Origin: Sialis fuliginosa
Taxonomy: Eukaryota > Arthropoda > Insecta > Megaloptera > Sialidae
Length of the DNA stretch: 64,000 bases
Assembly: GCA_961205875.1 (NCBI GenBank)
Contig: OY540821.1
Location: forward strand, 9,858,001 to 9,922,000
Direction: 5' to 3'
In this document: positions 3,161 to 62,060 of the stretch, piece after piece
How the letters are laid out: every line of letters begins with the position of its first letter
Position numbering within the stretch: the stretch's first letter is position 1
Program-made: the position numbers and the translations under genes
The notes under the pieces: model-generated
Seen by the model: the letters and a program-made list of their open reading frames with translations, nothing else
Database searches by the model: none
What the model was told of the DNA's origin: nothing

Positions 3161-3164
3161 TACA

Positions 3165-3640
3165 TAAGGTACTGGTACCAGTCTTGGCCGCTTTAAGAGC
3201 CAGGTATACTTTTTTGTAATTCTCATGAAATCATGTTACTAATTAAACAAGTACTTCTTGATTAAATTAATGTCCGCAAATATAGCTTTTTAATTTTGTT
3301 TATGTTTTTTCTTCAGTAATAGACACTTGCTAATGATTAAAAAATGATAAGTACTACGAAACAAAAGTTATAAAATAAAGAATCGTAAAATTAGAAACAA
3401 TGTAAAGCAGATGATATGATAATATAATAATTAATGAATAGATTACACTAATAATTAGTTTTTTGACATCCATTGGCCGATTGTAATCAAATTAAGCTGT
3501 TTTACTGTTAAATGTCTATAGATTATGATTCAGTTATGGCAGTATGTAATCAAATATCAACAAATATTTCTAATTTAGTACATTTAATTAAACAAGAGTT
3601 CAACACTGGGGTATGATCCAATACTGGTGCAAGTACCTTA
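3165..3640. mobile_element. AAGGTACTGG-family MITE, copy A
   Basis: The left end TAAGGTACTGGTACCAGTCT is mirrored at the right by GGTGCAAGTACCTTA. Internal blocks (CCGCTTTAAGAGC, TAATGATTAAAAAATGATAAG, AAATTAAGCTGTTTTAC, TTTAGTACATTTAATTAAAC, CCAACACTGG-like) recur in the same order in copies at 53301, 58953 and 61102. The flanking TA suggests a TA target, as for Tc1/mariner-type elements, but the family is not identified. No ORF. Confidence 0.8.
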
Positions 3641-3713
3641 TGTATAAAAATATATAGGTAGTAGGTACATTTAAAGTTATCTGTTGTCTAATAATATAAT
3701 AGACGAACAATTA

Positions 3714-3721
3714 ATTATAAC
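3714..3721. repeat. Left 8-bp target-site duplication (ATTATAAC)
   Basis: ATTATAAC directly precedes the left hAT terminus CAGAGCCGGCC. The identical octamer follows the far-right terminus at 9861-9868, 6.1 kb away. An 8-bp duplication is the hAT hallmark. Confidence 0.85.
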
Positions 3722-4423
3722 CAGAGCCGGCCTTTGCGATTCTGGCGCCCCAGGCGAGATTTTTTTTTGACGCCCCCCCCACCCCCCTCCACCGCCACAG
3801 TGACGATCATTAAAAATTATCCGCACAAAAAAAAAAAAAAAAGCGTGAGAAAATTATCTTGTTATTAATTCATTAGTGTAATATAATAATATAATATAAC
3901 ATATAATTGATAAATAATATATAATATAACTAAAATTATATAAAAGATTTCTTCCTGGCTTTCATATCTGCAAAATTATCGATTGCTGTCTCAAAATTGA
4001 GGTTTGCTACAACCTTATTTTCAATTGAAAGAATAGCCAAATTATTCAACCTATCTTCTATCATAGCCGATTGCAAATAAGTTTTTATGAATTATTTTAA
4101 TTTACTAAAACTTCTTTCACCACTAGCTACACTAACCGGAATTGTTACAAGAATTAGCAAAGCCACCCACAGATTTGGCACTGTGCTTTTCAAGTTTTGT
4201 AAAAAAATGTTTAATAAATAATTTATTTTTGATATTAAGCATTTTATTAAGTAAAATGAATTATTTTGCAGAAAAAATCAAAACTATTATTCAAAAAATA
4301 TATATAGCTTAAATTTGGCGCCCTAGAACAGAACATAGAAAAAAAGTTTAAAATAATTGGCGCCCCCACGAAATTAGCGCCCCAGGCTGTCGCCTGGGTC
4401 GCCTGGCCGTTCGGCCGGCCCTG
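3722..4423 (-). mobile_element. hAT element fragment, left copy
   Basis: This is a non-autonomous hAT remnant with both termini (CAGAGCCGGCC...GGCCGGCCCTG). Subterminal GC-rich blocks such as GGCGCCCCAGGCGAG and TCGCCTGGGTCGCCTGG are imperfect inverted repeats. The AT-rich core holds the 3' end of a transposase gene read on the minus strand (separate entry). The right flank is a T-run (TTTTTTTTTACTTATCC), not ATTATAAC, so its right border differs from that of the composite as a whole. Confidence 0.85.
3936..4199 (-). pseudogene. hAT transposase C-terminal remnant (copy 1)
   Basis: Read on the minus strand, the frame gives ...STVPNLWVALLILVTIPVS, VASGERSFSKLK, a stop, FIKTYLQSAMIEDRLNNLAI, LSIENKVVANLNFETAID and ends ...MKARKKSFI. 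This matches the hAT C-terminal dimerisation region of the group that includes ZMYM1-like host proteins: the ILxTIPVxVAS-ERSFSKLK block and the RLNNLAILSIE block are diagnostic. The in-frame TAA after SFSKLK is shared with copy 2, so the element was already dead before the two copies separated. The DDE catalytic part is missing. Confidence 0.85.
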
Positions 4424-5414
4424 TTTTTTTTTACTTATCCAAGTATTAAACCAATCTATAGATTCTAATAAATTGAAAATTTATCAATAATGATGAACGG
4501 ATGGCATATTAAAAAAAATATATTGTTACATTCATCAGAGTAACCGTTTTTTTAAATTAGAGCGAATTGTCGCTGAAGAAGTATCGACTATCGTCTAATT
4601 TTTATAATACGCGTGATTTTGCTAATTAACTTTTTGTGTAGTGTTTACCAGGTATGTACATTGTGATTCATATTATTTATTTGATTTTTTTGTTTCGGTT
4701 CTGATATTTATGTAATGGTTTTTATTTGTTAACGTATGTTTACATCATGCACTTGTCGAAAGAGCAATAAAACTAAGTTTTGTTAACGAATGTACATATC
4801 CTCATTGTTTATAGTTAATAATAATTATATAATTTATAAAAATATAATTTTAATAATAAAAAAAAGGTAATATTATTCTCTCCATTATATAACAAGTGAT
4901 TTTTTTTAACGTAATAACTGAAATCAGATGTTTACTCTTGTAAATTTTTGAATTAACGAATTATTTTTGAATTAAGAAAAAATGTTTTAGATAAAAAATG
5001 TCGAGTATGTTATTATCTATAATTTATTCCCTATACATTTTTTTCCAACATTTATAATTTAGCCAGAAAGAAATTTTTTATGTAATTATTTAGATTCACC
5101 TACACTGTTCACTATCAGTATTACGTATAAGAAAGTCCCATGGTACCTATGGCAAACAAGCACACTGTTTAATCTCTGTACTACGTATAAGAAAGTCCCA
5201 TGACACTCATGGCAGATATTTCTCCTCTGTTATGAACCATTTGAATTATAATAAAATTGCATGACGTTAACATTTGTTTACAAAGTCAAAAAAATGAAAT
5301 AAACTTTTAATTTCAAAAAAAGATATTTTTTACTATTTTTCCCTTAAATCTAGCCTACTTCTGCTTCAAAAAATTAATATTTCGTTAAAATAAAAAAAAT
5401 CATGCAATTAAGGG
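4424..5414. repeat. Inner left DNA ending in a piggyBac-like terminus
   Basis: This 990-bp stretch lies between the left hAT copy and the satellite. It ends TGCAATTAAGGG directly before TTAA, the signature of the end of a TTAA-specific piggyBac-like element. Positions 4890-5130 are paralogous to about 14900-15480. No coding frame is seen. A single weak possibility, a donor-like CAG-GTATGTAC at about 4650, is unsupported. Confidence 0.55.
5101..5220. repeat. 60-bp tandem dimer
   Basis: Two direct copies with a 60-bp period share ACGTATAAGAAAGTCCCATG (5123 and 5183) and a CACTGTT start. Related inverted pieces occur near 25850-25890 and 39510-39545 (ACGGGACTTTCTTATAC), so this belongs to a dispersed repeat. 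Confidence 0.7.
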
Positions 5415-8400
5415 TTAAAGATAATAGTGTAAGCTACATTTAAAAAAAAAACTGGAGTCTCCTCGATCGCGCCAAGTTGAGATATTAACTATTCAATTTA
5501 CTTCTTTGTTAGCGTATGAGTTTTAATTTGTTTTTTTAGTTTTAACTTGTTTTTAAAAAGGGAAGGAGCACGCGAAGGTCTTTAAGTGTGTGATGCTCTT
5601 AAAGATAATAGTGTAAGCTACATTTTAAAAAAAAACTGGAGTCTCCTCGATCGCACCATGCTGAGATATTAACTATTCAATTTACTTCTTTGTTAGCGTA
5701 TGAGTTTTAATTTGTTTTTTTAGTTTTAACTTGTTTTAAAAAAGGGAAGGAGCACGCGAAGGTCTTTAAGTGCGTGATGCTCTTAAAGATAATAGTGTAA
5801 GCTACATTTTAAAAAAAAACTGGAGTCTCTTCGATCGCGCCAAGCTGAGATATTAACTATTCAATTTACTTCTTTGTTAGCGTATGAGTTTTAATTTGTT
5901 TTTTTAGTTTTAACTTGTTTTTAAAAAGGGAAGGAGCACGCGAAGGTCTTTAAGTGCGTGATGCTCTTAAAGATAATAGTGTAAGCTACATTTAAAAAAA
6001 AAACTGGAGTCTCTTCGATCGCGCCAAGCTGAGATATTAACTATTCAATTTACTTCTTTGTTAGCGTTTGAGTTTTAATTTGTTTTTTTAGTTTTAACTT
6101 GTTTTTAAAAAGGGAAGGAGCACGCGAAGGTCTTTAAGTGCGTGATGCTCTTAAAGATAATAGTGTAAGCTACATTTTAAAAAAAAACTGGAGTCTCTTC
6201 GATCGCGCCAAGCTGAGATATTAACTATTCAATTTACTTCTTTGTTAGCGTATGAGTTTTAATTTGTTTTTTTAGTTTTAACTTGTTTTTAAAAAGGGAA
6301 GGAGCACGCGAAGGTCTTTAAGTGCGTGATGCTCTTAAAGATAATAGTGTAAGCTACATTTAAAAAAAAAACTGGAGTCTCTTCGATCGCGCCAAGCTGA
6401 GATATTAACTATTCAATTTACTTCTTTGTTAGCGTATGAGTTTTAATTTGTTTTTTTAGTTTTAACTTGTTTTTAAAAAGGGAAGGAGCGCGCGAAGGTC
6501 TTTAAGTGCGTGATGCTCTTAAAGATAATAGTGTAAGCTACATTTTAAAAAAAAACTGGAGTCTCTTCGATCGCGCCAAGCTGAGATATTAACTATTCAA
6601 TTTACTTCTTTGTTAGCGTATGAGTTTTAATTTGTTTTTTTAGTTTTAACTTGTTTTTAAAAAGGGAAGGAGCACGCGAAGGTCTTAGGTGCGTGATGCT
6701 CTTAAAGATAATAGTGTAAGCTACATTTAAAAAAAAAACTGGAGTCTCTTCGATCGCGCCAAGCTGAGATATTAACTATTCAATTTACTTCTTTGTTAGC
6801 GTATGAGTTTTAATTTGTTTTTTTAGTTTTAACTTGTTTTTAAAAAGGGAAGGAGCACGCGAAGGTCTTTAAGTGCGTGATGCTCTTAAAGATAATAGTG
6901 TAAGCTACATTTTAAAAAAAAACTGGAGTCTCTTCGATCGCGCCAAGCTGAGATATTAACTATTCAATTTACTTCTTTGTTAGCGTATGAGTTTTAATTT
7001 GTTTTTTTAGTTTTAACTTGTTTTTAAAAAGGGAAGGAGCACGCGAAGGTCTTTAAGTGCGTGATGCTCTTAAAGATAATAGTGTAAGCTACATTTTAAA
7101 AAAAAACTGGAGTCTCTTCGATCGCGCCAAGCTGAGATATTAACTATTCAATTTACTTCTTTGTTAGCGTATGAGTTTTAATTTGTTTTTTTAGTTTTAA
7201 CTTGTTTTTAAAAAGGGAAGGAGCACGCGAAGGTCTTTAAGTGCGTGATGCTCTTAAAGATAATAGTGTAAGCTACATTTAAAAAAAAAACTGGAATCTC
7301 TTCGATCGCGCCAAGCTGAGATATAAACTATTCAATTTACTTCTTTGTTAGCGTATGAGTTTTAATTTGTTTTTTTAGTTTTAACTTGTTTTTAAAAAGG
7401 GAAGGAGCACGCGAAGGTCTTTAAGTGCGTGATGCTCTTAAAGATAATAGTGTAAGCTACATTTTAAAAAAAAACTGGAGTCTCTTCGATCGCGCCAAGC
7501 TGAGATATTAACTATTCAATTTACTTCTTTGTTAGCGTATGAGTTTTAATTTGTTTTTTTAGTTTTAACTTGTTTTTAAAAAGGGAAGGAGCACGCGAAG
7601 GTCTTTAAGTGCGTGATGCTCTTAAAGATAATAGTGTAAGCTACATTTTAAAAAAAAACTGGAGTCTCTTCGATCGCGCCAAGCTGAGATATTAACTATT
7701 CAATTTACTTCTTTGTTAGCGTATGAGTTTTAATTTGTTTTTTTAGTTTTAACTTGTTTTAAAAAAGGGAAGGAGCACGCGAAGGTCTTTAAGTGCGTGA
7801 TGCTCTTAAAGATAATAGTGTAAGCTACATTTTAAAAAAAAACTGGAGTCTCTTCGATCGCGCCAAGCTGAGATATTAACTATTCAATTTACTTCTTTGT
7901 TAGCGTATGAGTTTTAATTTGTTTTTTTAGTTTTAACTTGTTTTTAAAAAGGGAAGGAGCACGCGAAGGTCTTTAAGTGCGTGATGCTCTTAAAGATAAT
8001 AGTGTAAGCTACATTTAAAAAAAAAAACTGGAGTCTCTTCGATCGCGCCAAGCTGAGATATTAACTATTCAATTTACTTCTTTGTTAGCGTATGAGTTTT
8101 AATTTGTTTTTTTTAGTTTTAACTTGTTTTTAAAAAGGGAAGGAGCACGCGAAGGTCTTTAAGTGCGTGATGCTCTTAAAGATAATAGTGTAAGCTACAT
8201 TTTAAAAAAAAACTGGAGTCTCTTCGATCGCGCCAAGCTGAGATATTAACTATTCAATTTACTTCTTTGTTAGCGTTTGAGTTTTAATTTGTTTTTTTAG
8301 TTTTAACTTGTTTTTAAAAAGGGAAGGAGCACGCGAAGGTCTTTAAGTGCGTGATGCTCTTAAAGATAATAGTGTAAGCTACATTTAAAAAAAAAACTGG

Positions 8401-9098
8401 AGTCTCTTCGATCGCGCCAAGCTGAGATATTAACTATTCAATTTACTTCTTTGTTAGCGTATGAGTTTTAATTTGTTTTTTTTAGTTTTAACTTGTTTTT
8501 AAAAAGGGAAGGAGCACGCGAAGGTCTTTAAGTGCGTGATGCTCTTAAAGATAATAGTGTAAGCTACATTTTAAAAAAAAACTGGAGTCTCTTCGATCGC
8601 GCCAAGCTGAGATATTAACTATTCAATTTACTTCTTTGTTAGCGTATGAGTTTTAATTTGTTTTTTTAGTTTTAACTTGTTTTTAAAAAGGGAAGGAGCA
8701 CGCGAAGGTCTTAAGTGCGTGATGCTCTTAAAGATAATAGTGTAAACTACATTTTTAAAAAAAACTGGAGTCTCTTCGATCGCGCCAAGCTGAGATATTA
8801 ACTATTCAATTTATTTCTTTGTTAGCGTATGAGTTTTAATTTGTTTTTTTAGTTTTAACTTGTTTTTAAAAAGGGAAGGAGCACGCGAAGGTCTTAGGTG
8901 CGTGATGCTCTTAAAGATAATAGTGTAAGCTACATTTAAAAAAAAAACTGGAGTCTCCTCGATCGCACCAAGCTGAGATATTAACTATTCAATTTACTTC
9001 TTTGTTAGCGTATGAGTTTTAATTTGTTTTTTTAGTTTTAACTTGTTTTTAAAAAGGGAAGTAGCACGCGAAGGTCTTTAAGTGCGTGATGCTCTTAA
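5415..9098. repeat. 184-bp satellite, 20 tandem copies
   Basis: The period is 184 bp (unit starts TTAAAGATAATAG at 5415, 5599, 5783 and so on, the last at 8911). The length of 3684 bp gives 20.0 units, with whole units at both edges. Each monomer contains CTGGAGTCTCTTCGATCGCG, CTTCTTTGTTAGCGTATGAG, a T/A-rich stretch and GGGAAGGAGCACGCGAAGG. An imperfect hairpin GAGCACGC...GCGTGATGCTC closes each monomer. Copies differ by only a few substitutions and A-run length changes. Units 1, 2 and 20 carry CTCCTCG where all inner units have CTCTTCG. No ORF is conserved. Confidence 0.97.
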
Positions 9099-9177
9099 CC
9101 CTTAATTGCATCTTGTTAACATTCGTGAACAATGTTTTCAGAGGTATCTATTAGCAAAAATGTACAATATTTTTTAG
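9095..9177. repeat. piggyBac-like terminus, right of the satellite
   Basis: TTAACCCTTAATTGCA (9095-9110) is the exact inverse of TGCAATTAAGGGTTAA at 5403-5418. CCC next to TTAA is the usual start of a piggyBac-family element. Only about 80 bp of this element remain before the right hAT copy. The two termini point away from the satellite, so the satellite is outside both ends rather than inside one element. Confidence 0.6.
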
Positions 9178-9860
9178 CCTTTGCGATTCTGGCGCCCAGG
9201 CGAGATTTCTTTTGACGCCCCCCCCTTTCCACCGCCACAGTGACGATCATTAAAAATTATCCGCACAAAAAAAAAAAAAGCGTGAGAAAATTATCTTGTT
9301 ATTAATTCATTAGTGTAATATAATAATATAATATAACATATAATTGATAAATAATATATAATATAACTAAAATTATATAAAAGATTTCTTCCTGGCTTTC
9401 ATATCTGCAAAATTATCGATTGCTGTCTCAAAATTGAGGTTTGCTACAACCTTATTTTCAATTGAAAGAATAGCCAAATTATTCAACCTATCTTCTATCA
9501 TAGCCGATTGCAAATAAGTTTTTATGAATTATTTTAATTTACAAAAACTTCTTTCACCACTGGCTACACTAACCGGAATTGTTACAAGAATTAGCAAAGC
9601 CACCCACAGATTTGGCACTGTGCTTTTCAAGTTTTGTAAAAAAATGTTTAATAAATAATTTATTTTTGATATTAAGCATTTTATTAAGTAAAATGAATTA
9701 TTTTGCAGAAAAAATCAAAACTATTATTCAAAAAATATATATAGCTTAAATTTGGCGCCCTAGAACAGAACATAGAAAAAAAGTTTAAAATAATTGGCGC
9801 TCCCACGAAATTAGCGCCCCAGGCTGTCGCCTGGGTCGCCTGGCCGTTCGGCCGGCCCTG
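9178..9860 (-). mobile_element. hAT element fragment, right copy
   Basis: Nearly identical to 3731-4423, but it lacks the first nine bases of the left terminus (CAGAGCCGG is replaced by the end of TATTTTTTAG). Its right end, GGCCGGCCCTG, is intact and followed by ATTATAAC (9861-9868), the partner of the octamer at 3714-3721. The differences from copy 1 are a few substitutions and homopolymer length changes, so the copies are recent or were homogenised. Confidence 0.88.
9373..9636 (-). pseudogene. hAT transposase C-terminal remnant (copy 2)
   Basis: Same reading as copy 1 at an offset of 5437 bp: an hATC-type dimerisation region with ERSF and RLNNLAILSIE blocks and the same in-frame TAA after SF-K-LK. 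Only the last ~90 codons are present, so it cannot encode a working transposase. Confidence 0.85.
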
Positions 9861-9868
9861 ATTATAAC

Positions 9869-14879: not shown

Positions 14880-15480
14880 ATCTGTCATGAGAGTGAACAG
14901 TGTATATCTACGTGATTCTAATTTTCTTTTAAAAATTCTGACATATTAATAAAAGATTGATTAAAATAAATGGGACATAATTTTTAAAGATAATAATATT
15001 TTCTACAATATGTACCAAATGATTTTTAAAAGTAATTACTTAACCGGAAACGGATGTTTACTCTTGTCAATTTTTGAATTTTCGAATTATTTTTGAAATA
15101 AGAAAATATATTTCAGATAAAAATTGAGTATGTTATTATTAGAGATTGGAAAAATAGTTTTCCAACTATTGCGTAAAAATGCATTTATTGTAATTTTTAT
15201 TACATATCTCCACCGTTTTCAGAAAACTGGTTTGATTGAACACAATTTGAAATCAACTATTTGCAACTACCTTTCCAACTATTTTCAAACTATTTGCGAC
15301 ACTTTTTACTGCTTCATTGCACTAATTATTATTAAATCGTAAAAAAAATTATTTATCAACTATTCAACTAGTAACTAGTAACTATTTCATTGAAAATAAC
15401 AACTATTTTTCTAATCTCTAGTTATTATCTGTAATTTATTTTCCAACATTTATGATTTAACCATGCAGCAAGAATGCGTA
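14880..15480. repeat. Paralogue of 4890-5130 containing a hAT MITE
   Basis: GGATGTTTACTCTTGTCAAT, TTTTTGAATT..CGAATTATTTTTGAA, TTTCAGATAAAAA-TTGAGTATGTTATTAT and TAATTTATT...CCAACATTTAT match 4920-5060 in order. The difference is one block of 289 bp: the MITE at 15140-15420 plus one duplicated octamer. Confidence 0.8.
15140..15420. mobile_element. hAT-type MITE (TAGAGATTGG family), copy 2
   Basis: The ends are TAGAGATTGGAAAAATAGTT and AACTATTTTTCTAATCTCTA. It is flanked by perfect GTTATTAT octamers (15132-15139 and 15421-15428). The paralogous repeat at 5009-5016 has a single GTTATTAT and no insert, so the empty site is preserved and the borders are exact. Internally the copy closely matches 2197-2485. 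Confidence 0.93.
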
Positions 15481-27412: not shown

Positions 27413-30240
27413 ATATCTTCAAAGTTCTGAAGCCAATACGATTAAATATTTTCATCATCTATTTTAAAAAAAAAACTTAAAATATTGCATTTATAATGAC
27501 ATAAATAGACTCAAAAATACTTAAAATATATACATTGTATAGACAGATTATAAGAATTTATAATTTATAATTTTGTACAATGAAATTTGAATCAATTTTT
27601 TGTTCCCCACTTGGTTTTATTTTATGAAATTTCGGTTACCAATTTTTGATATGTTAATTATTTCTTTTGCCAAGTTGTAAAAATAAAAGTGGGCGTCGCA
27701 GAAGGAAATAAAAATTGCAGAATTATAATTTTTTTTAAAAGATAATAAAATATATATTAATTTTCATTGTTACGATTTAAAGTTCGATAATATTCAATAT
27801 GTATCCTAATTATTATTGTTCTGCTTACATAAAAGGGTATATTATATGAATGCTCGAGCAAAAGATATTTAAATTAAGAATTCCTTACGAATTCTTTGTT
27901 CTCTTCCAATATTTGTTATATTGAAATTCCACTTATTCCAAATATTATGCATTTAAAACTTTCAATTTGATTAAAAAATAAAACAAGTATTAAAAAAATA
28001 AATTCTCTACAAGGAAACATAATGAATTTTGATGCCTATTAATATATTTTCCAAAATTTTCTCTATCCCGTTTTCAAATAATTAATAATCGAATTATATA
28101 TGTATATAAAACTATCATAATTAATTATGTTCAGTACTATTATTAAAATACTCTTACTGTTTTATAGCTGTGTGATTCATACATTATGAACTAATTATCC
28201 ATAAAAAAATCGTCTTATTTTGAAGTATTTGACAAGTTTTTCGTTCGCGCGGTAAGTAAACATCAATGGTATTAAAATAGTGCTGATATTATGAAAATTA
28301 TCTCGTACGGTCACCAGCTCTGTTATAATAAGTTGAAGTTTCATGAGTATTCTAGATTTTTAGAAAGAGTTTAAGACACTCTAGTACGCAGGTCTTTGAA
28401 AAATCGAAAAAACACGTGTATTGGGAAAATCACCCCCCTCTGCTAATAGCCATTTTTAAGATAGAGGGCTAAAACTTTTTTTCACATTCTTTTTGAATTA
28501 TTTGGAGCTGATTTGGGGGGCGGCCCGGTCAAAATTCGTCCTAACCCATATAAGGACATATGTTTAAGCGAATTTACAGAAGAATTTAATAATTTTTTTT
28601 CTCATTTGTTTATGAGTTTTCCGTCAAACGGCTTTGAGTTTAGGTTTGTCTATGCCACTACCACAACCCTAATTTTTTTGAAACAAATTGGTGCGACAAG
28701 GGTCTGGTGGTTCCCTTCTAATATAATGTTACGTTTTCATAATTTTTATGTTAAATACATTCATTTATCTTTGAAATAAAAATAAAAATTGGGATATAAT
28801 ATGTAATTTATATTAGACTGGAGTTCTAATGACATGTTTTACTGAATAATAATTTTTTCACGTCTCCACTGCCGGGTTAAATAAATAAAAATCCGAAACG
28901 AAACTAACAAATAAATTCTCACACGTTCTGATATAATTTAAGAAACTTTTTCACCACCGAAATAAAAGGAACGACCACCGTCTAAGAGACAACAAAGTTT
29001 ACGGCTCATTTGTATTCAAGCTATACCATGATTAAATCGCCACCAAGCTCTATTATATATAATGCCCTTTTTGTACTAACAGCAATTAAGTATGCATGAA
29101 AAATATATGTACACAGGCGCAATCCACCTTGACATTTTTTTTCGTTCGGTCGTTTTTTAAAAACATAAACACCATTTAATTCCTTTGGGATTATTACCCT
29201 TGCCTCACAGATCTGTACCCCTCCCCTCCCCTCCCACGCTCAGCCCCCTCTATAACCCGTACTTTTTACGCGCAAATAAACATTATTTACTTTTCTGAAA
29301 TGGTTGTAATTTAGTAGCCATATAATAACAGATTTAATTCTTTGGTTTTTATTTATACTTATGTGTAATATATAGAATGGGTGGTTTCGTAGTATTTTTT
29401 TAGAATGTTGTTCTTCACGATTAATTAATACTTTTTTATTGTATGTGGAGAAAGGATGGATAATTTGCGTGTTTGAACATGAGAGGCGTTACCAGTGAAA
29501 TTAATGCTTTTTTGTTTCGTGATGTGTTTAGAAATTTAATACATTGAGATGGAATTTTATATTTTTGGTTTAAAATATTCTTAAAAAGTCCTGAGTGACT
29601 GACTCATCAACGCCTAGTTCAAACCTCTGGACCTAGAATAATGAAAATTTTAGTGTTTCTTCTATATAACTCAAGCACCCACTAAGAAAGAGTTATCTGA
29701 AAGGGGGAAAATTAAAAAGAAAATAACACGTTTCTGCATGATTAAAATTTAAAAAAAATCTGCTTTGGGTGCTACGGAAGTGAATAGTGTACGTGTTTCT
29801 AATTTTTGGTTATTGATAAAATATAGAATAAAATGAATAGAACATAAAATGTGGAAAATAATAGTCTTTATAACTTTTATCTAAATAATTTTTCTCTAAT
29901 TGGCAACGTTTCAAAAATAATTATAAAAATTCAAGAATTGACAAGAATAAACATTTGTTTTTGGATGAGCTACAAGTGTAGATATAATGGAGAATAATCA
30001 AAATATACAAAATTACAGTAGAACCTCTATATCTCCAATCCCAAGAGAAGACACAAACTGTAAACTGAAAATTCGGCATGTTTTTATTTTTTTCATATAT
30101 CTTTATATTTTCTAGATCTATGAACAGTAATTTAAAATTCACAAAATTAACTAATTAAATATGTTAAACTTGATATAAAATTAATTAATGAAATGAAAAT
30201 GGACGTATATTTGCGTTTTTATTTAAAATGATGTAACTAA
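27413..30240. other. AT-rich stretch without recognised features
   Basis: About 2.8 kb with no convincing gene, RNA or paired repeat. The frame at 28513-28779 (88 codons) lacks any recognisable motif and has AT-driven composition. A C-rich patch (29219-29252) is low complexity. Confidence 0.4.
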
Positions 30241-37800: not shown

Positions 37801-40615
37801 ACAAATATTTTGTTCAAAACATCACAAAAAAATGTATACAAAATTAAATTAATATTTGGCTTTGTGCTATCGCCGCCAAGAAGAGATTGGCATGAATATA
37901 CGAACTAGAGATACTCATAGTAAGAGTTATGACAGCGTCGCCATTTTTTAGCCAAATCAAAAATTCATTGAATGTATTAATTTTAGCAAGCATTAAAAAA
38001 TTAAACATAAACATAATAATTTGGATATACTTAATGATATTGATTGATAAAATCAGAAATTACGTCTCGACCTTCAGGGACGGAGGTACGTGCGTGTAAA
38101 GGGCCGGCTGGCCCCCACGATTTTCAGTAGGGGCCGCAAATACCCCACGATACCAGTTACGTTTGTAAAATTTACTATACCAGTTCAGGGTTAAACATTT
38201 ATGATTCAATGACGTCATATATTTTTTATTTATTGGTTTCAAATTAATTTATTTTTGAAGAAAAAATGTTTTTTTTGGGTAAATTTCCTCATAATATATA
38301 ATACATAACAACGTATTTTCTGGTGTCAAAACAAAATAAAATACGATATCCATATACAAAGGGCGAGTTAATTCTGTGGAACGAAAAAAGAGACAACAAG
38401 GATTAAAGAGTAAATAAAACAAAATACATAAATAATAGGGGGGAGGGGGTGTCATTTGTAAAGTTCGCGCCTCACTGATTCAGTGGCCATTGATTGGGTT
38501 AAACTGTTGTTATGTTATAGTACTATGTTATATAAATGAAAATCACAACAAATTTGTCGAACAATGGTTCGATAATTTTAAAGGATTATTTTTGAAAATT
38601 TTGTGAAAATAATATGTTATGAAAATGATAAATTTTTAGAAATATACCGGGTGGATAAAAAAATGGGTTTGTTAATTTTCGGATCATTTTGAAATACATT
38701 TAAACTCCTTGATTAGTCAAAAAAGCGTTTTAATTTTTATTATTACTCTATAATTATACCAAATCTCAGCTGTGAAGATCAAACAGTTCAATATCTAGAA
38801 AGTTTTATTATTATTATAGCCAAGCCAACGAAATTTGCTAGCTTACAAGCACTTTCAAACGGGGTATAAAACTTACATGCCAGTTCTGTTTCAGTTTTTG
38901 ACAGATAGTTGCATGCATAGTAAGTAAAAGCAAGTTATGTAAAGCATATTACTACCCTTGAGTAAAAACGGTAAAAACTTACTGCGCATACAATCAAAAA
39001 CTCCAAGAGAACATATAAGTTTGACACCCCATTTGAAAGTGTTTGTAAGCTAGCAAAGTGTTATTTTTCCAATTTCGGTACAGAAAATTAAAAACCGCCT
39101 TGGGGAAGGGAGGGGGGTGCTTTTGAACACTTAGTCTCTTCTGAACTTAAAGCAAAACTTGTTAAGTAGCACATAATCCCTATATCCTTAAATATATAAA
39201 AACACTTTCTACAGAGGTCCTAATTTCTACTGTGACAAATTAATCTAAACAAAACAACGCAAAAAATCCTAGAGATTAAATTATAACAATAATAATAATT
39301 AATTACTAGCCCGAACACTTAGCGCGTATCTAAACTGCCACAAGCTGTCTGTTAATTACCACTATTGTTTGTTAAAACCTTTGTACCGTCCCTTCTATTT
39401 ACGGGGGCTCAATAAATTCTACCTCGGCAAAAACATACAAGGTAACTGTTAAATCTAGACATGAGAATATACAGTGCAGCACAGACTTACGCTAATTAAT
39501 TTATCAATTAAAAAGCTGCCATAGGTACCACGGGACTTTCTTATACGTATTACTAAGAGTGACCAATACGTGTTTGTAATTTTATAAAAATAATAATTCT
39601 GGCAAACTGATAAATGTTAGATTCATTACAATTCTTAACTACAACATTTTTTTCTAGTTCGTACAGTTTTAAAAAAAATCCGGTTGTTTCTTCCCAGACG
39701 AAAATTAATCTCAAAATATAAAATTTCACTTTATTTACGATTTGTTGTCTTTGAGTTATAGCGTCTACATACAAACATTATGGCGAAAAAGTCAGAATGA
39801 ATAAATTCATCGAAATCCGGAATTTTCAAAAAAATATTATAAAGCAAGCAAAAAAAACTTTGTCAGAGTAAAAAAATGTTTATGTTATCCAAACTACTTT
39901 TTTAGATTCGAGTTCACATCAGTGGAAAAAATCAGAGATCGAATATAAAAAAAAATATTTTGAAGCTGAAACTACCCATTTCAAAATTTGCTTCAAATTT
40001 TTTTTTAATCTAAAAACAGGCAATTTCTCCCATACGATTTTTTGCATATTTTGTAAATAATCAAAAAATTACCATTTATAATTTGTTCTGTATACCTTAT
40101 TTTGCACTACCCTATATTTTGTAATATTGTATGTAAACCTACTACCTACTAATAAATTTTATTATTCTTTGAATTTTAAAGATCCAAAAAATAACATAAC
40201 ACCCCATATAAATGTTTCAAGTTATATTTTACTTGTGAAAATTCTACCATAAACAAAATAGAACCAAGAAAATGCGACTGCTGAGAACCTTGCTTTTTCC
40301 ATATCATTTTATTTGTACAAAAAACAAAGACATAACTAACAATGATACAAATGTGACGGAGGTTTATAGACACAAATGTTGACGGCAAAAATTTAAAACA
40401 GTTTCCGTGTAATTCTCTACTGTCTATAAAAAACCTTCAGCATTAAGAGGGCTGTATTTAGACGCGGCGTTGCTTATTGATTTGTTTTTCTTTTTGCTTT
40501 GAATTTTAATACGTTATTATTATCTGATGTATGAATATTTCTTGTTCTGTCGTTAATGTAAAAAGCTCTGATTTTTTTGTACAGCATAAAAAATTTAAAT
40601 ATGTGTAGTATAAAT
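34875..40615. other. Repeat-poor AT-rich region, about 5.7 kb
   Basis: I see no exon, RNA gene or paired TIR. Small items only: an (AAAT)n run at 35074-35095, a GC-richer patch with GGGCCGGCTGGCC at 38101 that looks like a decayed hAT-type end, and ACGGGACTTTCTTATACG at 39530 from the repeat seen at 5123. Short frames (36590-36787, 38060-38455, 39553-39774, 40176-40388, all minus) have no motif or splice support. Confidence 0.45.
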
Positions 40616-41035: not shown

Positions 41036-41370
41036 TATATAGGACATTTCGTGTGAAGCGAATTAGAGCCAAGGCCAAAAATTGTGCGGATGAAAATATT
41101 TATAGAATTAAAAAAAATTTTATAGAAAATTATAAAGGTAATTTATATTCTATTTTTTGGCAGGTTCTAAGCATTTTTAACTTAAAAAAAGTTGGTTCTT
41201 TATAAAAATAAAAATTAACATAAAATTCACAAAAATTGTAAATATCCAAATTTTTGAATATTTCCCAAAACACAGGAATACATATAAAACTTTTAAAACT
41301 TATTTTGTTTTGATTAACCATGCGAATTAAGTAAGTAAAGTTAAACGTATTAAATAAATAAGAAGTTTCA

Positions 41371-41530
41371 TTTCAAAAAATTACATCATTTTGTATGTTT
41401 TATTCTTACTTGAAAATAGACTATACAAAATTATTATTATTAATTAACTATTTCAAAAAATTACATCATTTTGTATGTTTTATTCTTACTTGAAAATAGA
41501 CTATACAAAATTATTATTATTAATTAACTA
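41371..41530. repeat. Perfect 80-bp tandem duplication
   Basis: 41371-41450 and 41451-41530 appear identical, each starting TTTCAAAAAATTACATCATT and ending TTAATTAACTA. A third TTTCA follows and then diverges. It is a recent duplication or an assembly artefact. Confidence 0.92.
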
Positions 41531-44045
41531 TTTCAGCCCAATTTTTAAGCCCTCACCATATTGAATCATATAAAAACTAATAAACCTCTCTCCCTAAGCT
41601 ACAATTAAAGCCACATAAAATAATTTTTATCCACACAATTTTTGGCCCTAGTTCATAACGTCCCATATGTCAAAAAATTATCAAGTGCAAGTAGAGCCTC
41701 GTGCGTTAGTGTCCCGTACCATAGTTTAAAAAAAATATTTATTATTGTAACACAAACTTTCCTTATGGATTATGATCCTTCAGGTTACAAAATAATCAAT
41801 TTTAAGAAAATAAAGAAAAATAACTACAACAAACTATCTTATAAATATAATAAAAACAACAAAAAACTTTGTAAAACCGTCAGTTTTGATACCCGGCAAG
41901 TATCTGGAGCAAGCAGTAATTTCTCACACCACATTTGCTTAATATAATATTTATAGAACGAGTCAGTGCTGTACAATCATTAATTCCCAAAATCGACTAC
42001 AGGCGGAAGTACCGACTTCCGGATTTGATTCAACAAGACACCACATCGTGGCGCTTCCAGCGTCTATACACTGTTAAAAATAACATTGTTCACTTTTCTT
42101 AGAAACCGTATTATCCGAAGATAATAGATTTATTTTATTATTCAGTCGTCTATATAACCCAGAACGAAATATTCGATTTTATTAACACTTATTACTATGA
42201 ATAGTCAGTTATTATATGCTAGCTAGGACATTTTTTATACCTATTCCCGATATTATCAAATTTAAAAAAAAGTAAATTTGGTATATTAGCAACGTCACTT
42301 AAATGTTATATTTAAAATACTTTTAAATGTATTATGCATGTGTATAATATGATAAACAAAATTTAAAAGAGCAATTAGTAAAACGCTATTGATATCAAAA
42401 TTTATAGTATTATCAGAATAAATTGACATTTTTTTTACTAAGAATGGCGTAAGCAAGGGGCTCGAAAATCTTTTCAAATAACCCTCTCCGCACCCCCATG
42501 CATTGACTTAAAATTTTTTAAATATGCATTGTAGTAGGCTTTGGTGATATTTTTAAGGCAAATAATATCATTTCAAATAAAGTATTTTTATATTCAAAAA
42601 ATCATAAATGGTTAAAATAAGATTAACTTAACTCTCCGTTTTGAAAATATTCGCGAAAAAAACAGTTTTTCGCCCCTTTCATCCCTTGCTCAACTACGCT
42701 CATTAATATCTTAAAGTGTGTAGGTATAAAACTATCTCAATTATAGTTAAATTCTTAAAAAATTAAAATAAGGGTGTTTCAATAAAATTTTTATTTCTAA
42801 CCGAGTGTAATCATTATCTAAGTCCTGCAATAAAATTCAATGATCATTTTTTATCGAAATACCATGAATTCTGTTTTGGGGAAAATAATCTAATCATGAA
42901 AAAAAACTGTGCTCGTAATTTTTAACTGGTGTGACAGTCACAGTGTTAATTTATTGACAAACTGTAGGGTCTGTTTTAATTAATTACACGAATTTGCATA
43001 TAAATATACAGTAGAACCTCTTATGTACGACCTACAGTTACAATTAAATATTTAAAACGTTGCGGTTTTTTTTGACAGTAGTTGAAGAAATTAAAATTAG
43101 CTTCCCACTAGATACCTCTTATATAGTATTACTAAAGTTAAGTAAAAGGCAGTAATATAATTTTTTCAAAATTTTTGGTACTGTTAGATTTTATAAACGT
43201 TACTGGGGAAAAAAAGCAATAAAATATGGTTTAATAACAAGATACAAGCCTTGTAATTTGGCTGCTCATTCAAAGTGAGAAGGCAGTGAATACTCTTTTC
43301 AAAACATTAAGTGGGACCTGATAGAGCTGAAACCATTTTTTCCAATTTTTATATTTTTCTTACTTTTTTTACTGCCTTTTACCTAAACCAGGTATCAGAC
43401 TCAAAAACTTGCTTTGAAAATGTGACCACAAAAACTGAAGGAATTTTTTTTTATTTCCTGACTTGAGAACAAAATAAGAAAAATCAGTTTGACATCATGT
43501 TGTTTTTGATTTCCAAGTTCAATATTATCAGTTGCTTTCAACTGCGTCCTTATAACGAAGTTTAGACGGTAGCCGTTGAATTTATGTTCTTTATTTTGGA
43601 GTTATATTCCACCCAGGTGCAAAACTTTTCACATTTAATGTATTCCCTTCAAGCTATTTTCAAAACAGCTATGAATTATATATCAGAAGGCAGACCGCCC
43701 TAAATTTACCTACATTTCTTCTTTATTTCTCCCTCTAGCGGGAGTTAACGGGTAAAATTTAGATACCATAATCGTGTTTACGTTTTAAAATTTCCTACTG
43801 GTGAAAAACTGGCATAACGATGAAAATCTGGGGAGAAAATGTCTATATATATATACACACAAATATATGTCTTATTTATGGCATTTTGTTTATGCATAAT
43901 TCATAACTCTATATGTTATACCCTTTTAACCCTTTATTGTATACCTTTTTGCATTTATGATATCCTGGATAAGATAAAAAAGGTTCATATATTAGTTCAC
44001 ATATTAGCCGGGCATTCTTACTGTGATATGTAAACATCTGTTTCG
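41531..44045. other. AT-rich stretch, mostly unrecognised
   Basis: No exon supported. The frame at 41642-41947 (101 codons) has an unusual but unrecognised sequence and no splice context. ACAGTAGAACCTCTTATGTA at 43010 resembles a pogo/Tigger-type terminus without a partner. The patch with CTAGCGGGAGTTAACGGG at 43736 is unexplained. Confidence 0.4.
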
Positions 44046-50775: not shown

Positions 50776-51276
50776 GATAACGTTGCGAGTATTATCTTAC
50801 CAATTTTGATAAGACTTAGTACATTTGTAGTTTAATCCAACCTAAGTGACACTTAATTTTTATACGTGTCTAAACAGTCGTTAAAGGGGTGAAAACCAAC
50901 CTCAAAATTTTAATTTTAAATGCTAATAAATACATATAAATAAACTACTTCATGTTTTGCCTTGGTAATAAATGCAACTAAATTCAAATTGTCAGATTAG
51001 TTATTCTACAAATGTGTATTATATAATTGAAATTAGGATGTTAGAAAACTAATATTTATAATGAAAAGGTGAGTTTTATTTCTGAAAAATCCCATTGAAA
51101 TTTTTCAGATATTAAAAATATATTAAAGAACATGGTTCTCCATACCGTTAATTTTTACATTCGTTGTAAATCATCCTATAGAATATACATTTTAGGTTAA
51201 ATTCGACCCCAAAATACATTCGATACCTTCAAGAACATGAAATCGAATCACGTATATATAATATAATATAAAGGAG
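50776..51276. other. Intron sequence downstream of the Beat exon
   Basis: AT-rich, no conserved reading on the minus strand after the splice donor. ATACATTTTAGGTTAAATTC and similar words look like repeat relics only. Confidence 0.5.
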
Positions 51277-51282
51277 ACTTAC
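51277..51282 (-). other. Splice donor of the Beat-like exon
   Basis: Minus strand GAT|GTAAGT: the consensus donor follows the codon for Asp in GIHVD, leaving the exon in phase 0 at its 3' end. Confidence 0.85.
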
Positions 51283-51491
51283 ATCAACATGTATTCCTGG
51301 CACCTCGAACACCCTGGTTGGCGGTTCCTCCTTAGGGACGTACCGATAGAACTCATCGTCCTGCCGGTACCATTTGACTGAGTATAGCGGTGAATCGTCC
51401 AGCTTGTAGTCGCATACTAGCGTCACCGAGTGCCCACTACGGACTGCCCGGGGAATGACCACCTTTACCTCGCGTAACGACTCGCTCGTGC
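51283..51491 (-). CDS. Internal exon of a Beaten-path-like Ig-domain protein
   Basis: Seen: a 209-bp minus-strand exon with GC far above its surroundings, between acceptor TTGTCCCACAG and donor GTAAGT. It begins with two bases of a split codon and encodes 69 residues: TSESLREVKVVIPRAV, RSGHSVTLVCDYKLDDSPLY, SVKWYRQDDEFYRYVPKEEP, PTRVFEVPGIHVD. Known: this matches the first Ig domain of the arthropod Beat family. The B-strand Cys (in LVCDY), the C-strand Trp (VKWYR), the EFYRYxPKExPP block and FxVPGIxVD are its signatures. Beat proteins are secreted or membrane Ig proteins that bind Side-family receptors and guide axons. The partner Cys must lie in the next exon, not found here. Inference: partial gene on the minus strand, paralogue not assignable from one exon; an in-frame GTG inside is not a start. 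Confidence 0.93.
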
Positions 51492-51540
51492 CTGTGGGAC
51501 AAAGGTTCCACCATTAGAAATGTTGTAAGGGTACATTGAT
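51492..51540 (-). other. Splice acceptor region of the Beat-like exon
   Basis: Minus strand reads ...TTTCTAATGGTGGAACCTTTGTCCCACAG up to the exon (given in two parts: branch-like TTCTAAT, then the pyrimidine-rich CCTTTGTCCCACAG). The AG is at 51493-51492. Confidence 0.8.
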
Positions 51541-52797: not shown

Positions 52798-53300
52798 TTA
52801 GTGGATTTGTATATGATAACAGAGCATTTTCTTCATAACAATTTCAATAACAAAAGTGTCCACGTAAGACATACGAGAGACAAACTGCATATTTTAAAAA
52901 CAACAATCTTGCAAAGTTTTAAATACAAAGGGATAATCCTTTTTTCTTACTTTGTGACCTTTTTTATCAAGACATGAGTTTAACGTTGTTACAAAGAACA
53001 CAAAAGCTTCTTTGTTTGGTAAATAAGTTACAGACGAGGTAAAACATGAAGAAGTGACTTTAAATTTCCTAAATAGATAGTCCTTTGTTTGTGACACTAA
53101 CGTCTTTCAAAATAATTGCGGTTTAATAAATTATTAGACAAGTTTCATAGTTCCACATTGCTGAGAAAATGCGGCAATATAAATAACGAATGTAAGTTTC
53201 TCTTTTGTTTCACACAAACAATTCGTTTTTAAATGGATAAATCCAATAAGGTATTTCAGAAGTTATATACGAGTAATTAACACATTTTAAATTTCTTATA

Positions 53301-53779
53301 TAAGGTACTGGTACCAGTCTTGACCGCTTTAAGAGCAACGTATACTGTTTGTAATTCCCACGCACTTTTATTACTAATAAAACAAGTAACTCTTTATTAA
53401 TTCAATTTAATTACTAAAGTCCGCAAATATAGTTTTTTTGTTGTAATTATAGCCTTTTATTTCGTTTCAGTAATGGATGAAGTAAAATCAGTAATGGGCA
53501 TTCAGTGATGGACATTTGCTAATGATTACAAAATGATAAGTACCACGATACAAAAGTGTAAAGCAGTTGCTATGATAATATTATAATTAATAAATAGATT
53601 ACACTTATAATTAATTTAAATGTCCACCATTTTCACACCCGATTGTACTCAAATTAAGCTGTTTTAAAGTTAAGATTATGATTCAGAAATGGCAATAATA
53701 AAAATTTTGTAATTTAGTACATTTAATTAAACAAGTGTCCAACACTGGGGTATTATCCAAGATTGGTGCCAGTACCTTA
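53301..53779. mobile_element. AAGGTACTGG-family MITE, copy B
   Basis: Full-length copy: TAAGGTACTGGTACCAGTCT at the left and GATTGGTGCCAGTACCTTA at the right. Internal order follows copy A, with a short duplicated phrase (AGTAATGGATGAAGTAAAAT, CAGTAATGGGCA) that copy A lacks. Confidence 0.85.
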
Positions 53780-54575
53780 CCTACAATTAATCACTAATTA
53801 TTAGGAGTACATAATATGCCATGATGTATAAATTACAAGTCATTAGTGGGTTAAAGAAATATCAAATGTAAGACCAACAAAACTGAATCCATGATTACCT
53901 ACTAGCCTCCTCTCTAGAATACAATTACCCTGTCACGGATTCTAAATTAACCCATCAAGTTCATAAATGTACTTCATTATCTGCTGACTGCAGTTTAATA
54001 TTCTGGAAAACCGATTTATGTATTATATAAAACGTCACACAAACTATCCTATAAACTAAAATTTGCATGCAAGGAGTTGGCTTTGTCCAAGTATATAGAA
54101 TATTTATGAATTAAATATTGTTGCTGGTTATCCATGTGCGCCAATAGGAAGGGGAAAGTGAGGTATTTAAATTAGTAACAAATTACGATAATCGGTCAAC
54201 AAATATTAAAAGAAAAAATTATAAAATAATCTCCTAATTGAATAACTTTTGTCTGAAAAGTTTTGGTACATAAAAAACGCTCTAATTTTTGATTGGAGTA
54301 TGCCACTTTCTATGGTCATAAATAAGGTCAAAATAATGATTTTCAGATAAGGAGCCATATTAAAATCCGTGTAGAACATCATCAGATTTCAATTTTCTTT
54401 TGTTTATTTTAAAGTTCTTTTTGAGAAAATTATTTTTTCCCTACAAAATCTAAAAATTTCACTGTTCTTACAAACTTAATTGTTATATAACTTTTTTATT
54501 GTGCAAAATATCATTTTTTAGCAATCCATTGATAACACGATAATACTGTTTTAATGAACAACTTCTTTGGAAATT
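53780..54575. other. AT-rich stretch with one repeat fragment
   Basis: No exon. AACTTTTGTCTGAAAAGTTT at 54245 is a weak relative of the 27.1-kb TIR element terminus. Confidence 0.4.
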
Positions 54576-58952: not shown

Positions 58953-59312
58953 TAAGGTACTGGCTTTTTTGTTTATGTTTTGTCTCCAGTAATGAATAAA
59001 GTAAAACCAGTACTAGGTACCCAGTGATGGACATTTGCTAATGATTTCAAAATGATAAGTACTACGTAAAGCAGATGCTATGATAATATAATAATTAATA
59101 AATAGATTACACTAATGATTAGTTTAAATGTCCACCATTTTGTCACCCACTGGCCAATTGTCATCAAATTAAGCTGTTTTACATTTAAGTGCCTATAAAT
59201 TATGATTCAGTAATGGCAGTAAACAATATTAGCAAATATTTCTAATTTAGTACATTTAATTAAAACAGTGTCCAACACTGGAGTGTTGGTCAAGATTGGT
59301 ACCAATACCTTA
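58953..59312. mobile_element. AAGGTACTGG-family MITE, copy C
   Basis: TAAGGTACTGG at the left and GATTGGTACCAATACCTTA at the right. About 110 bp of the left interior present in copies A and B are deleted (the TIR runs directly into TTTTTTGTTTATGTTTTGTC). Confidence 0.85.
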
Positions 59313-59391
59313 TTATGTTTTGTAAAATATGTCAATTTTTTCCCTTGAAATATTAAAAAATCATACAGGTACAATAATATTTCAATATGGA

Positions 59392-60837: not shown

Positions 60838-61101
60838 AATATGTACTAGAAAATATATTACATCTATATGTTTCACTTTATTTTATAAACTGTCAACTTG
60901 GTTAAGTCATACTCATAGGTATATATTTTATACCAATCTTGACTTATTTTAATGTATTCCTAAACGAAAATAAAGTTTTCAAACTGTTCACAAAGAAAAT
61001 GTAATAATTTCAAGTCGGAACGTAATTTATACATTTCATTCAAAAGTTTCAACAAACAAAATATTATAACACCTACAATAACCAGGGCTGGATTATTTTT
61101 A

Positions 61102-61594
61102 TAAGGTTATACTGACACTTGTCTTGCAGCTTTAAGAGTAAGGTTTACTGTTTTTGGGATTGATGGGCTTATTTTTTCTAATTCTTGTGAATCTTTATTA
61201 AATCAATTTAAATATCAAGTTTTAATTTATCAGTTTGTGTTTTTTCTCTAGTAACGGACAATCTAAAACCAGTAATGAGCATCCAGTGATGGACACTTGT
61301 TAATAACTACAAGTGATTATTAATTAATAGATTACACTAATTATTAATAAAATGCTCACCATTTTGACACCCATTGGCCGATTGTAGTCAAATCAAGCTG
61401 TTTTACAGTTAATTTTGCATAGATTACACAGCTATACAAAAAAGCGACCAAGATAGCATTGGTCGCTTTTTTGGCTCCGTATTTTTTTATTTTTTTGTGT
61501 AGTAATCAAATATCAACAAATATTACTGATTTAGTACATTTAATTAAACAAAAATCACTGTAGTAATTTCGAAGATTGGTGCCAGTATACCTTA
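61102..61594. mobile_element. AAGGTACTGG-family MITE, copy D, with hairpin insert
   Basis: The left end TAAGGTTATACTGACACTTG is diverged; the right end is GATTGGTGCCAGTATACCTTA (in parts). Interior order follows copy A. An extra segment around 61425-61495 containing a perfect hairpin separates two blocks that are adjacent in copy A. Confidence 0.8.
61438..61472. repeat. Perfect 14-bp-arm hairpin
   Basis: AAAAAAGCGACCAA (61438-61451), loop GATAGCA, TTGGTCGCTTTTTT (61459-61472). Shaped like an intrinsic terminator or a pol III-type U-tract hairpin, but it sits inside a MITE copy and no promoter is evident. Confidence 0.9.
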
Positions 61595-61734
61595 TATACT
61601 TTTTAAACAAAATATGAAATGAACCGTCAATATGAAAGAAATCTTAAAACATATGTATATGTTATGAATTTTAAACGGAAATATTTTTCCAATAAGAAAA
61701 TTAAAATAAATAAAGTGAACCGTGAATTAAAACT

Positions 61735-62060
61735 GAATTATGTATCGGTTATCAGAAACTGAACTAATTAACAAAAACTGAACCGGTTATTAGAAACTTG
61801 ATCAGTTTTTATAAAATAAACTGCAGAATTGAACCGAATCAATAATACATCTGAACAGAAACTGAACCGTGAATTAAAACTAAAATACCTGTCGGATTTG
61901 AACAGAAACTGAACCGGTTATAAGAAACTTGATCAGTTTTTATAAAATAAACAGCAGAATTGAACCGAATCAATAATACATCTGAACAGAAACTGAACCG
62001 TGAATTAAAACTAAAATACCTGTCGGATTTGAACAGAAACTGAGCCGGTTAATATAAACA
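61735..62060. repeat. 131-bp tandem repeat, about 2.4 copies
   Basis: GAACCGGTTAT-AGAAACTTGA recurs with a 131-bp period (61780, 61911, then GAGCCGG at 62042). Units also contain the internal phrases GAACAGAAACTGAACCG and TTGAACCGAATCAATAATAC. The two complete units are nearly identical. The sequence is built from irregular AAACTGAACCG sub-repeats. Confidence 0.88.

Follow-up and report, generated by a model that had tools for sequence, protein, structure and literature searches.

Introduction

In bacteria, composite transposons consist of two copies of a mobile element which move the DNA between them. How satellite DNA spreads to new places in a genome is an old question, for which transposition and the reintegration of circles represent the main proposals. 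Both routes were proposed for the satellite dispersal of Tribolium TCAST to euchromatin (PMC3411249), and hobo/Hermes circles are described as able to reintegrate (PMC2803484). For the foldback transposon Tetris and the TIR-220 satellite of Drosophila virilis, the available text reports internal tandem repeats that expand to arrays of up to 66 copies (PMC4079207); as far as these texts go, Tetris is the nearest satellite-making transposon among those compared here. In maize, a pair of Ds and Ac elements is reported to have moved up to 100 kb of DNA as a macrotransposon (PMC3260210). Here, we report on a stretch of 64,000 nucleotides from Sialis fuliginosa (C13:9858001-9922000 of the 392-Mb, 20-contig host assembly; hereafter the window), in which positions 3714-9868 very probably represent, judged from their sequence, a single insertion of a composite hAT element (macrotransposon), multicopy and non-autonomous, with the order hAT, right part of a piggyBac-like element (PB), 184-bp satellite, left part of PB, hAT.

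The locus resembles the maize Ac/Ds macrotransposons and Composite Insertions, as these are described in the available parts of PMC4270019 and PMC3260210, in that two nearby hAT copies would have used their outer ends, the DNA between them would have moved, and 8-bp duplications flank the product. However, the maize cases in those texts are individual alleles, whereas the Sialis composite became a family (109 + 44 inner borders) and carries a satellite array whose length varies. The Tetris repeats lie, according to the text at hand, within the element's own terminal repeats, whereas here the satellite appears to have been captured via a PB insertion and two hATs, and the whole block most probably moves. 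For TCAST the consulted text proposes mechanisms, whereas here the duplications at 41 readable copies point to transposition; circle reintegration in the style of hobo/Hermes, as far as the cited excerpt describes it, is not needed for the Sialis composite. Compared to bacterial composite transposons, the ends are those of a eukaryotic hAT, the cargo is a non-coding satellite and the transposase is present as a remnant only. Among the open-licence papers searched, no hAT macrotransposon with satellite cargo was recognised. The composite differs from the known cases by the captured satellite, its three nested parts and its copy number. Hence, whole-array transposition, readable from the duplications at 41 copies, offers one concrete route for satellite spread, and the family suggests that hAT macrotransposition, known in maize, can found a large family in an animal.

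Composite copies and target duplications

The insertion in the window is one of many. A search of the assembly with the 702-bp hAT, in which 40 of 637 candidates were scored, returned many copies of 98-100% identity. A second composite was found on C2, with a hAT pair approximately 5.1 kb apart, 18 satellite units, the same inner truncation and CCAATATG on both outer sides. Furthermore, the junction between satellite and PB-left occurs at 178 places and that between PB-right and satellite at 157 (each with at most one mismatch), while the reversed-pattern controls gave 0.

Altogether 71 candidate copies, in sets of 9, 13 and 49, were examined for paired outer ends. The set of 9 contained seven perfect duplications and two copies with a broken right arm; the set of 13 gave 11 perfect duplications, one at 7/8 and one copy without a readable right end. 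Short stretches of the set of 49 were readable in 14 cases, i.e. 11 perfect duplications and one at 7/8 detected by script and two perfect ones by eye. Ten of the remaining 35 were refetched as longer stretches, which yielded eight perfect duplications and two copies without a left hAT. In total, 41 of the 71 copies were readable at both outer ends: 39 have perfect duplications with 35 distinct 8-mers, two match at 7/8 and none is without duplication. In all 41, it is the outermost ends of the two hAT copies that bound the target duplication. The readable composites range from approximately 3.7 kb (7 units, L018/L062) to approximately 21 kb (101 units, L012/L069), and the 101-unit composite is flanked by GATATGTA on both sides.

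The sequence CCAATATG accounts for five of the 39 perfect duplications because those copies sit within one larger repeat. For this site, and for this site only, a hAT-free target was seen: the other arm of a palindrome beside L035 holds a single CCAATATG and no hAT, and the flanks match over 190 bp (99.5%) to its left and 574 bp (96.9%) to its right. Both this empty site and the right arm deleted at one end at 109 places (see below) fit transposition of the whole block.

These results bear directly on a preliminary description of the locus, which was made from the window alone and preferred a single circle that recombined into a lone hAT at ATTATAAC. That preference cannot be upheld, as many loci have the composite, each with its own duplication. 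The same description had named the middle block lying elsewhere between its own duplications as a finding that would speak against its circle, and this is nearly what was found, with 39 perfect and 2 near-perfect duplications in the 41 readable copies. Its alternative, a composite transposon moved by two hAT copies, is favoured by the duplications at multiple loci.

Several observations concern the surroundings and the derivatives of the composites. The composites at CCAATATG within the larger repeat were seen in L035 (1-2000, 7784-8352), L189, L008, L020, L029, L030, L045, L058, L059, L061 and L063. The left part of this repeat is a 2-kb palindrome (94%), and its end, ...CCCTTCATTGCCTGTACTA, lies approximately 569 bp rightward; the CCAATATG composite was probably carried further by the enclosing repeat. 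L007 (C10:16894247-16897947), in which a hAT is followed by 280 bp from the CCAATATG repeat, then by bases 561-702 of hAT as a fragment and by PB, is a rearranged composite. Left-arm deletions in L170, L175, L177 and L179-L183 start at hAT bases 46-55, in a T-run ahead of a long C-run, and end at varying points within hAT or PB; possibly, these recurrent deletions reflect failed gap repair at the G-rich strand. In L178 and L184, which lack the left hAT, the outer duplication, present as a copy in L178 and as a remnant in L184, directly adjoins the T-run of PB, as if a complete left hAT had excised alone. In L065, PB-left continues into sequence other than hAT.

Anatomy of the window insertion

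In the window, the insertion starts with the left outer target duplication ATTATAAC (3714-3721), where the junction reads ATTATAAC-CAGAGCCGGCC, and it finishes with the right outer duplication ATTATAAC (9861-9868), where the junction reads GGCCGGCCCTG-ATTATAAC with 9868 as last base. Two random 8-mers from the window match at 8/8 with a probability of 1.2e-4; ATTATAAC itself occurs at 10 places on the plus strand of the window. The outer hAT ends of the composite, CAGAGCCGGCC and CAGGGCCGGCC, agree at 10 of 11 positions and represent short terminal inverted repeats with a CAG start. Hence, two hAT copies in the same orientation inside a perfect 8-bp duplication, with PB-like pieces and a 20-unit satellite between them, are indeed seen at 3714-9868, as the preliminary description had stated.

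The left hAT arm (3722-4423, minus strand, 702 bp) was assigned by a Pfam match and its ends, both of which are kept. It carries a remnant of the transposase C-terminus: a 56-aa piece on its minus strand matches the hAT dimerisation region PF05699 (E 1.6e-6, 28.2 bits, cut-off 21.4). The rest of the arm is a remnant as well, and the transposase domain is kept only in part. The right arm (9177-9860, minus strand, 684 bp) is without hAT bases 1-8 through a 9-bp deletion. In an alignment of both arms on the same strand there are 7 substitutions, and the indels fall in homopolymer runs; 4 of the substitutions, including one at the truncated edge, lie within the first 66 bp.

Between the arms, on the plus strand, lie the PB-like right part (4424-5414), which begins with the T-run of the inner hAT duplication and finishes with ...ATGCAATTAAGGG; the satellite array of 20 units of approximately 184 bp (5415-9094), each of which starts with TTAAAGATAATAG; and TTAA with the PB-like left part (9095-9176), which begins with CCCTTAATTGCAT... 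and whose final TTTTTTA is a remnant of the TTTTTTAC duplication of hAT. The array borders ATGCAATTAAGGG-TTAA (5402-5418) and TTAA-CCCTTAATTGCAT (9095-9111) form a perfect 17-bp inverted pair, and the TTAA target duplication and CCC...GGG ends of a PB-like element are thus present at the satellite borders. The two ends of the array cut the monomer at the identical point, GATGCTC-TTAA-AGATAATAG, which, read circularly, fits an insertion of PB at that TTAA. In the PB parts (4424-5414 and 9099-9176), no overlapping stop-to-stop frame of at least 100 aa was found; a domain scan of these parts was not made.

Probable history of the composite

In four PB copies that lack hAT, ATATTTTTTACTTATCC is uninterrupted, i.e. 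the TTTTTTAC site is empty, which shows that TTTTTTAC is the duplication made by hAT in PB. L167 consists of satellite, PB and satellite and contains no hAT (with TTTA in place of its left TTAA), and a similar arrangement is seen in L166; therefore, PB in satellite preceded hAT. The circular order given in the preliminary description, with hAT within PB and PB within satellite, agrees with these PB-in-satellite loci and the empty PB sites. Its T-run at the inner border of the left copy is present as well, but according to the four hAT-free PB copies it is the TTTTTTAC duplication of hAT with an expanded T-run. Likewise, nine bases are lost at the right copy (CCAGAGCCG), as described, but not all of them belong to hAT: the loss takes the last base of the inner duplication together with hAT bases 1-8.

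Across the assembly, the inner left border of the right arm occurs in two forms, intact TTTTTTAC-CAGAGCC at 44 places and the 9-bp-deleted form at 109 places. Among the composites with intact border, 11 have perfect outer duplications and one matches at 7/8. Both border forms are found with outer duplications, and therefore both versions moved. In addition, the arms differ at hAT bases 65-66, with TT in 25 of 30 right-arm rows (one locus counted twice, L035 = L060) and in 0 of 25 left-arm rows, which have CC; the latter count is biased because left arms were chosen by similarity to the left arm of the window. TT is also present in 6 of 8 right arms with intact border, which suggests that it arose before the 9-bp deletion. 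Hence, several stages coexist in one genome: PB in satellite, the composite with intact inner end, the composite with deleted inner end, and deletion derivatives.

These structures would be explained by the following sequence of steps, the first of which are directly visible: PB inserted at a TTAA of the satellite and hAT then at TTTTTTAC of PB. A founder may have gained a second PB carrying hAT by unequal exchange, or by joining of the satellite that flanked a single such copy. A hAT transposase supplied elsewhere would then act on the two outermost ends, i.e. the left end in the left hAT and the right end in the right hAT, cutting there and pasting the block, and the array length would subsequently shift through gain or loss of units. 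The founder could stem from the Composite Insertion route, from unequal exchange in satellite, or from a circle.

It is tempting to go one step further and to regard the loss of the inner end as an improvement of the composite: the 9-bp deletion would have kept the right hAT from departing by itself, linked the satellite to the hAT ends and preceded the larger expansion (109 versus 44), so that macrotransposition and not circle reintegration would have made most of the dispersed satellite. This extension is tentative, and we lean somewhat towards doubting it.

A precursor-like structure was seen in L046 (C1:44913995-44917015), which has satellite, PB left, a full hAT and PB right in the parental order and breaks off 112 bp into PB right.

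Satellite arrays

We paired the borders of 68 arrays (49 and 19 earlier copies), which comprise 6-101 units with a median of 17; 15 of the 83 right junctions used were without partner inside 40 kb. The length of 67 of the 68 arrays is within 0.1 of a whole unit number, and one is at 59.34. The mean distance between units is almost the same within loci (1.29%) and between loci (1.34%), with 91 of 500 permutations as low (258 units, 33 loci), which favours arrays that were transported ready-made.

Specific variants mark the last unit, which adjoins PB-left: of 30 loci, 20 have C48 and 19 have A57 in this unit. The penultimate unit carries C48 in 0/30 and A57 in 1/30, and all non-last units together carry them in 33/228 and 22/228, respectively. 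In the window array, the C48 variant is present in units 1, 2 and 20.

The satellite core has 4,875 matches in the assembly. The first nine arrays on C1 comprise six with listed PB junctions, two composites that carry internal deletions but still end in hAT, and a diverged one. Satellite monomers outside the composite occur in the arrays of L166/L167 (PB, no hAT) and in the array at C1:3625-3630 kb. The diverged array in L173 and L174 (C1:3624551-3630850) has units of 88-94%, and its fetched flanks match neither PB nor hAT; the sequence that precedes it recurs after the array, like a direct repeat of approximately 200 bp around it.

Two other explanations of the arrays were considered and dropped. 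That the satellite is itself a TTAA element whose ends face outward was ruled out, since its ends are not an inverted pair and L167 has PB inside the array. That each array grew from a single unit once it had been inserted is not supported by the distances within and between loci, though some local copying occurred. Regarding structured or ribozyme-like RNA, a search of the window against Rfam gave no match, and the folding of the monomer is no better than that of its shuffles (z +1.08). In searches for relatives elsewhere, the satellite was absent from the searched viral and genome contigs and the PB end from the viral contigs; the hAT piece gave 301 pattern matches in the genome contigs, of which 0 were confirmed.

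Alternative explanations

It must be mentioned that a number of findings weigh against the composite as a mobile family. The movement is read from insertion structures in one assembly. An autonomous hAT copy was not found in the 150 scored of 555 candidates, where the longest open frame has 167 aa. Thirty of the 71 candidates were unreadable at one or both ends in the fetched stretches, and two of these 30, L178 and L184, have no left hAT. Within the arrays, the nearest neighbour of a unit lies in its own array more often than expected (11.3% versus 3.2%), therefore some local copying took place. An intact precursor, i.e. PB with one full hAT and satellite on both sides, was not encountered at the junctions checked (100 of the 178 on the left, 83 of the 157 on the right), where the broken L046 is the sole precursor-like copy. 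Finally, a 19-base search for the right end of hAT found 406 places; among the first 100, a listed junction is at most 3 kb away for 63 and at most 15 kb away for another 6, and 4 belong to two deleted composites, but 27 are unattached to any composite. These 27 may represent lone hATs or else related elements, so that lone hATs open to recombination may be more frequent than the near-identical copies indicate.

Such lone copies are what is needed if many lone hATs, already standing within duplications of their own, later took up circles or array segments by homologous recombination. This would yield the identical final structure with one duplication per site. The scored hAT copies, 98-100% alike, are sufficiently similar for exchange, and reintegration of satellite circles via homologous recombination was proposed in the available part of the Tribolium report (PMC3411249). 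Nevertheless, we consider this explanation improbable. Among 117 hAT copies with the 79-aa piece on C1-C8, which come from the 150 scored of 555 candidates, only 5 look lone, or 7 if a pair on C4 (7 kb apart) is not a composite. For 102 of the 117, a PB/satellite junction or an inner border is no more than 3 kb away, and from their distances we regard the others of the remaining 15 as arms that belong to composites or to a deleted one. One lone hAT, L022, has TATATCAG on both sides; the flanks of another, L028, ATATTACC and AATTATTACC, match only roughly. Moreover, 14 of the 27 unattached right ends lie at 10-44 Mb of C1 and 7-36 Mb of C2, without any listed composite junction; the junctions listed for these contigs all fall towards the contig ends, i.e. 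below 10 Mb or above 44 Mb on C1 and below 7 Mb or above 36 Mb on C2. With recombination into lone hATs, composites would be expected in the middle parts of C1 and C2, too. The diversity of the arms is not clearly higher in the outer than in the inner halves, a test which is weak at 0.2-0.7% diversity: in four windows from base 111 to 702 it amounts to 0.54, 0.28, 0.64 and 0.68% in right arms and 0.23, 0.16, 0.32 and 0.68% in left arms. The one-off version, in which a circle entered a lone hAT at ATTATAAC at the window locus alone, fits the local anatomy alone, but other loci have the same structure including the inner truncation with different duplications; on the evidence of these loci it was rejected, and we give it practically no weight.

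An assembly artefact, in which a graph loop at the repeated hAT node placed the satellite block between the halves of a lone hAT, comes to mind as assemblers are prone to err at near-identical repeats and tandem arrays. However, the differences between left and right arms (CC versus TT at bases 65-66, the 9-bp deletion) recur at many loci, the array lengths vary, and the deletion derivatives and left-arm losses are locus-specific, which makes such an artefact highly improbable. A last alternative concerns the founding step only. Alternative transposition of hAT with re-replication, as in maize Ac/fAc, may have produced a Composite Insertion whose re-replicated ends were joined via satellite recombination around one PB carrying hAT, followed by ordinary macrotransposition. 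In the excerpt of PMC4270019, maize Composite Insertions have the transposon termini outside, flanking DNA inside and 8-bp duplications, and one structure was joined at flanking repeats. But an origin of this kind looks the same as unequal exchange in the satellite, and no donor with reversed hAT ends was seen, so that we regard it as a possible though rather unlikely beginning.

Neighbouring sequences in the window

On its left side, the insertion is adjoined by a dispersed repeat, which occurs at 3161-3670, 53297-53812, 58967-59313 and 61101-61598 of the window. An empty site for the window composite was sought within the window, and none was found, as the other copies of this left-flank repeat (approximately 53.3, 59.0 and 61.1 kb) stop short of the junction. 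No tRNA genes were found in the window. Diverged relatives of the PB interior (69-76%) are present at 14943-15139, 29803-29961 and 39510-39621, with the common motif ACGTATAAGAAAGTCCC in the copy at 39.5 kb. Furthermore, the window contains a perfect 80-bp tandem repeat (41370-41535, 2.1 copies) and a 131-bp repeat (61770-62051, 2.2 copies). On the minus strand at 51232-51513, an open stretch, which we take to be beat-like and hence suggestive of an insect host, resembles an immunoglobulin V-set exon (E 6e-5, below the Pfam cut-off).

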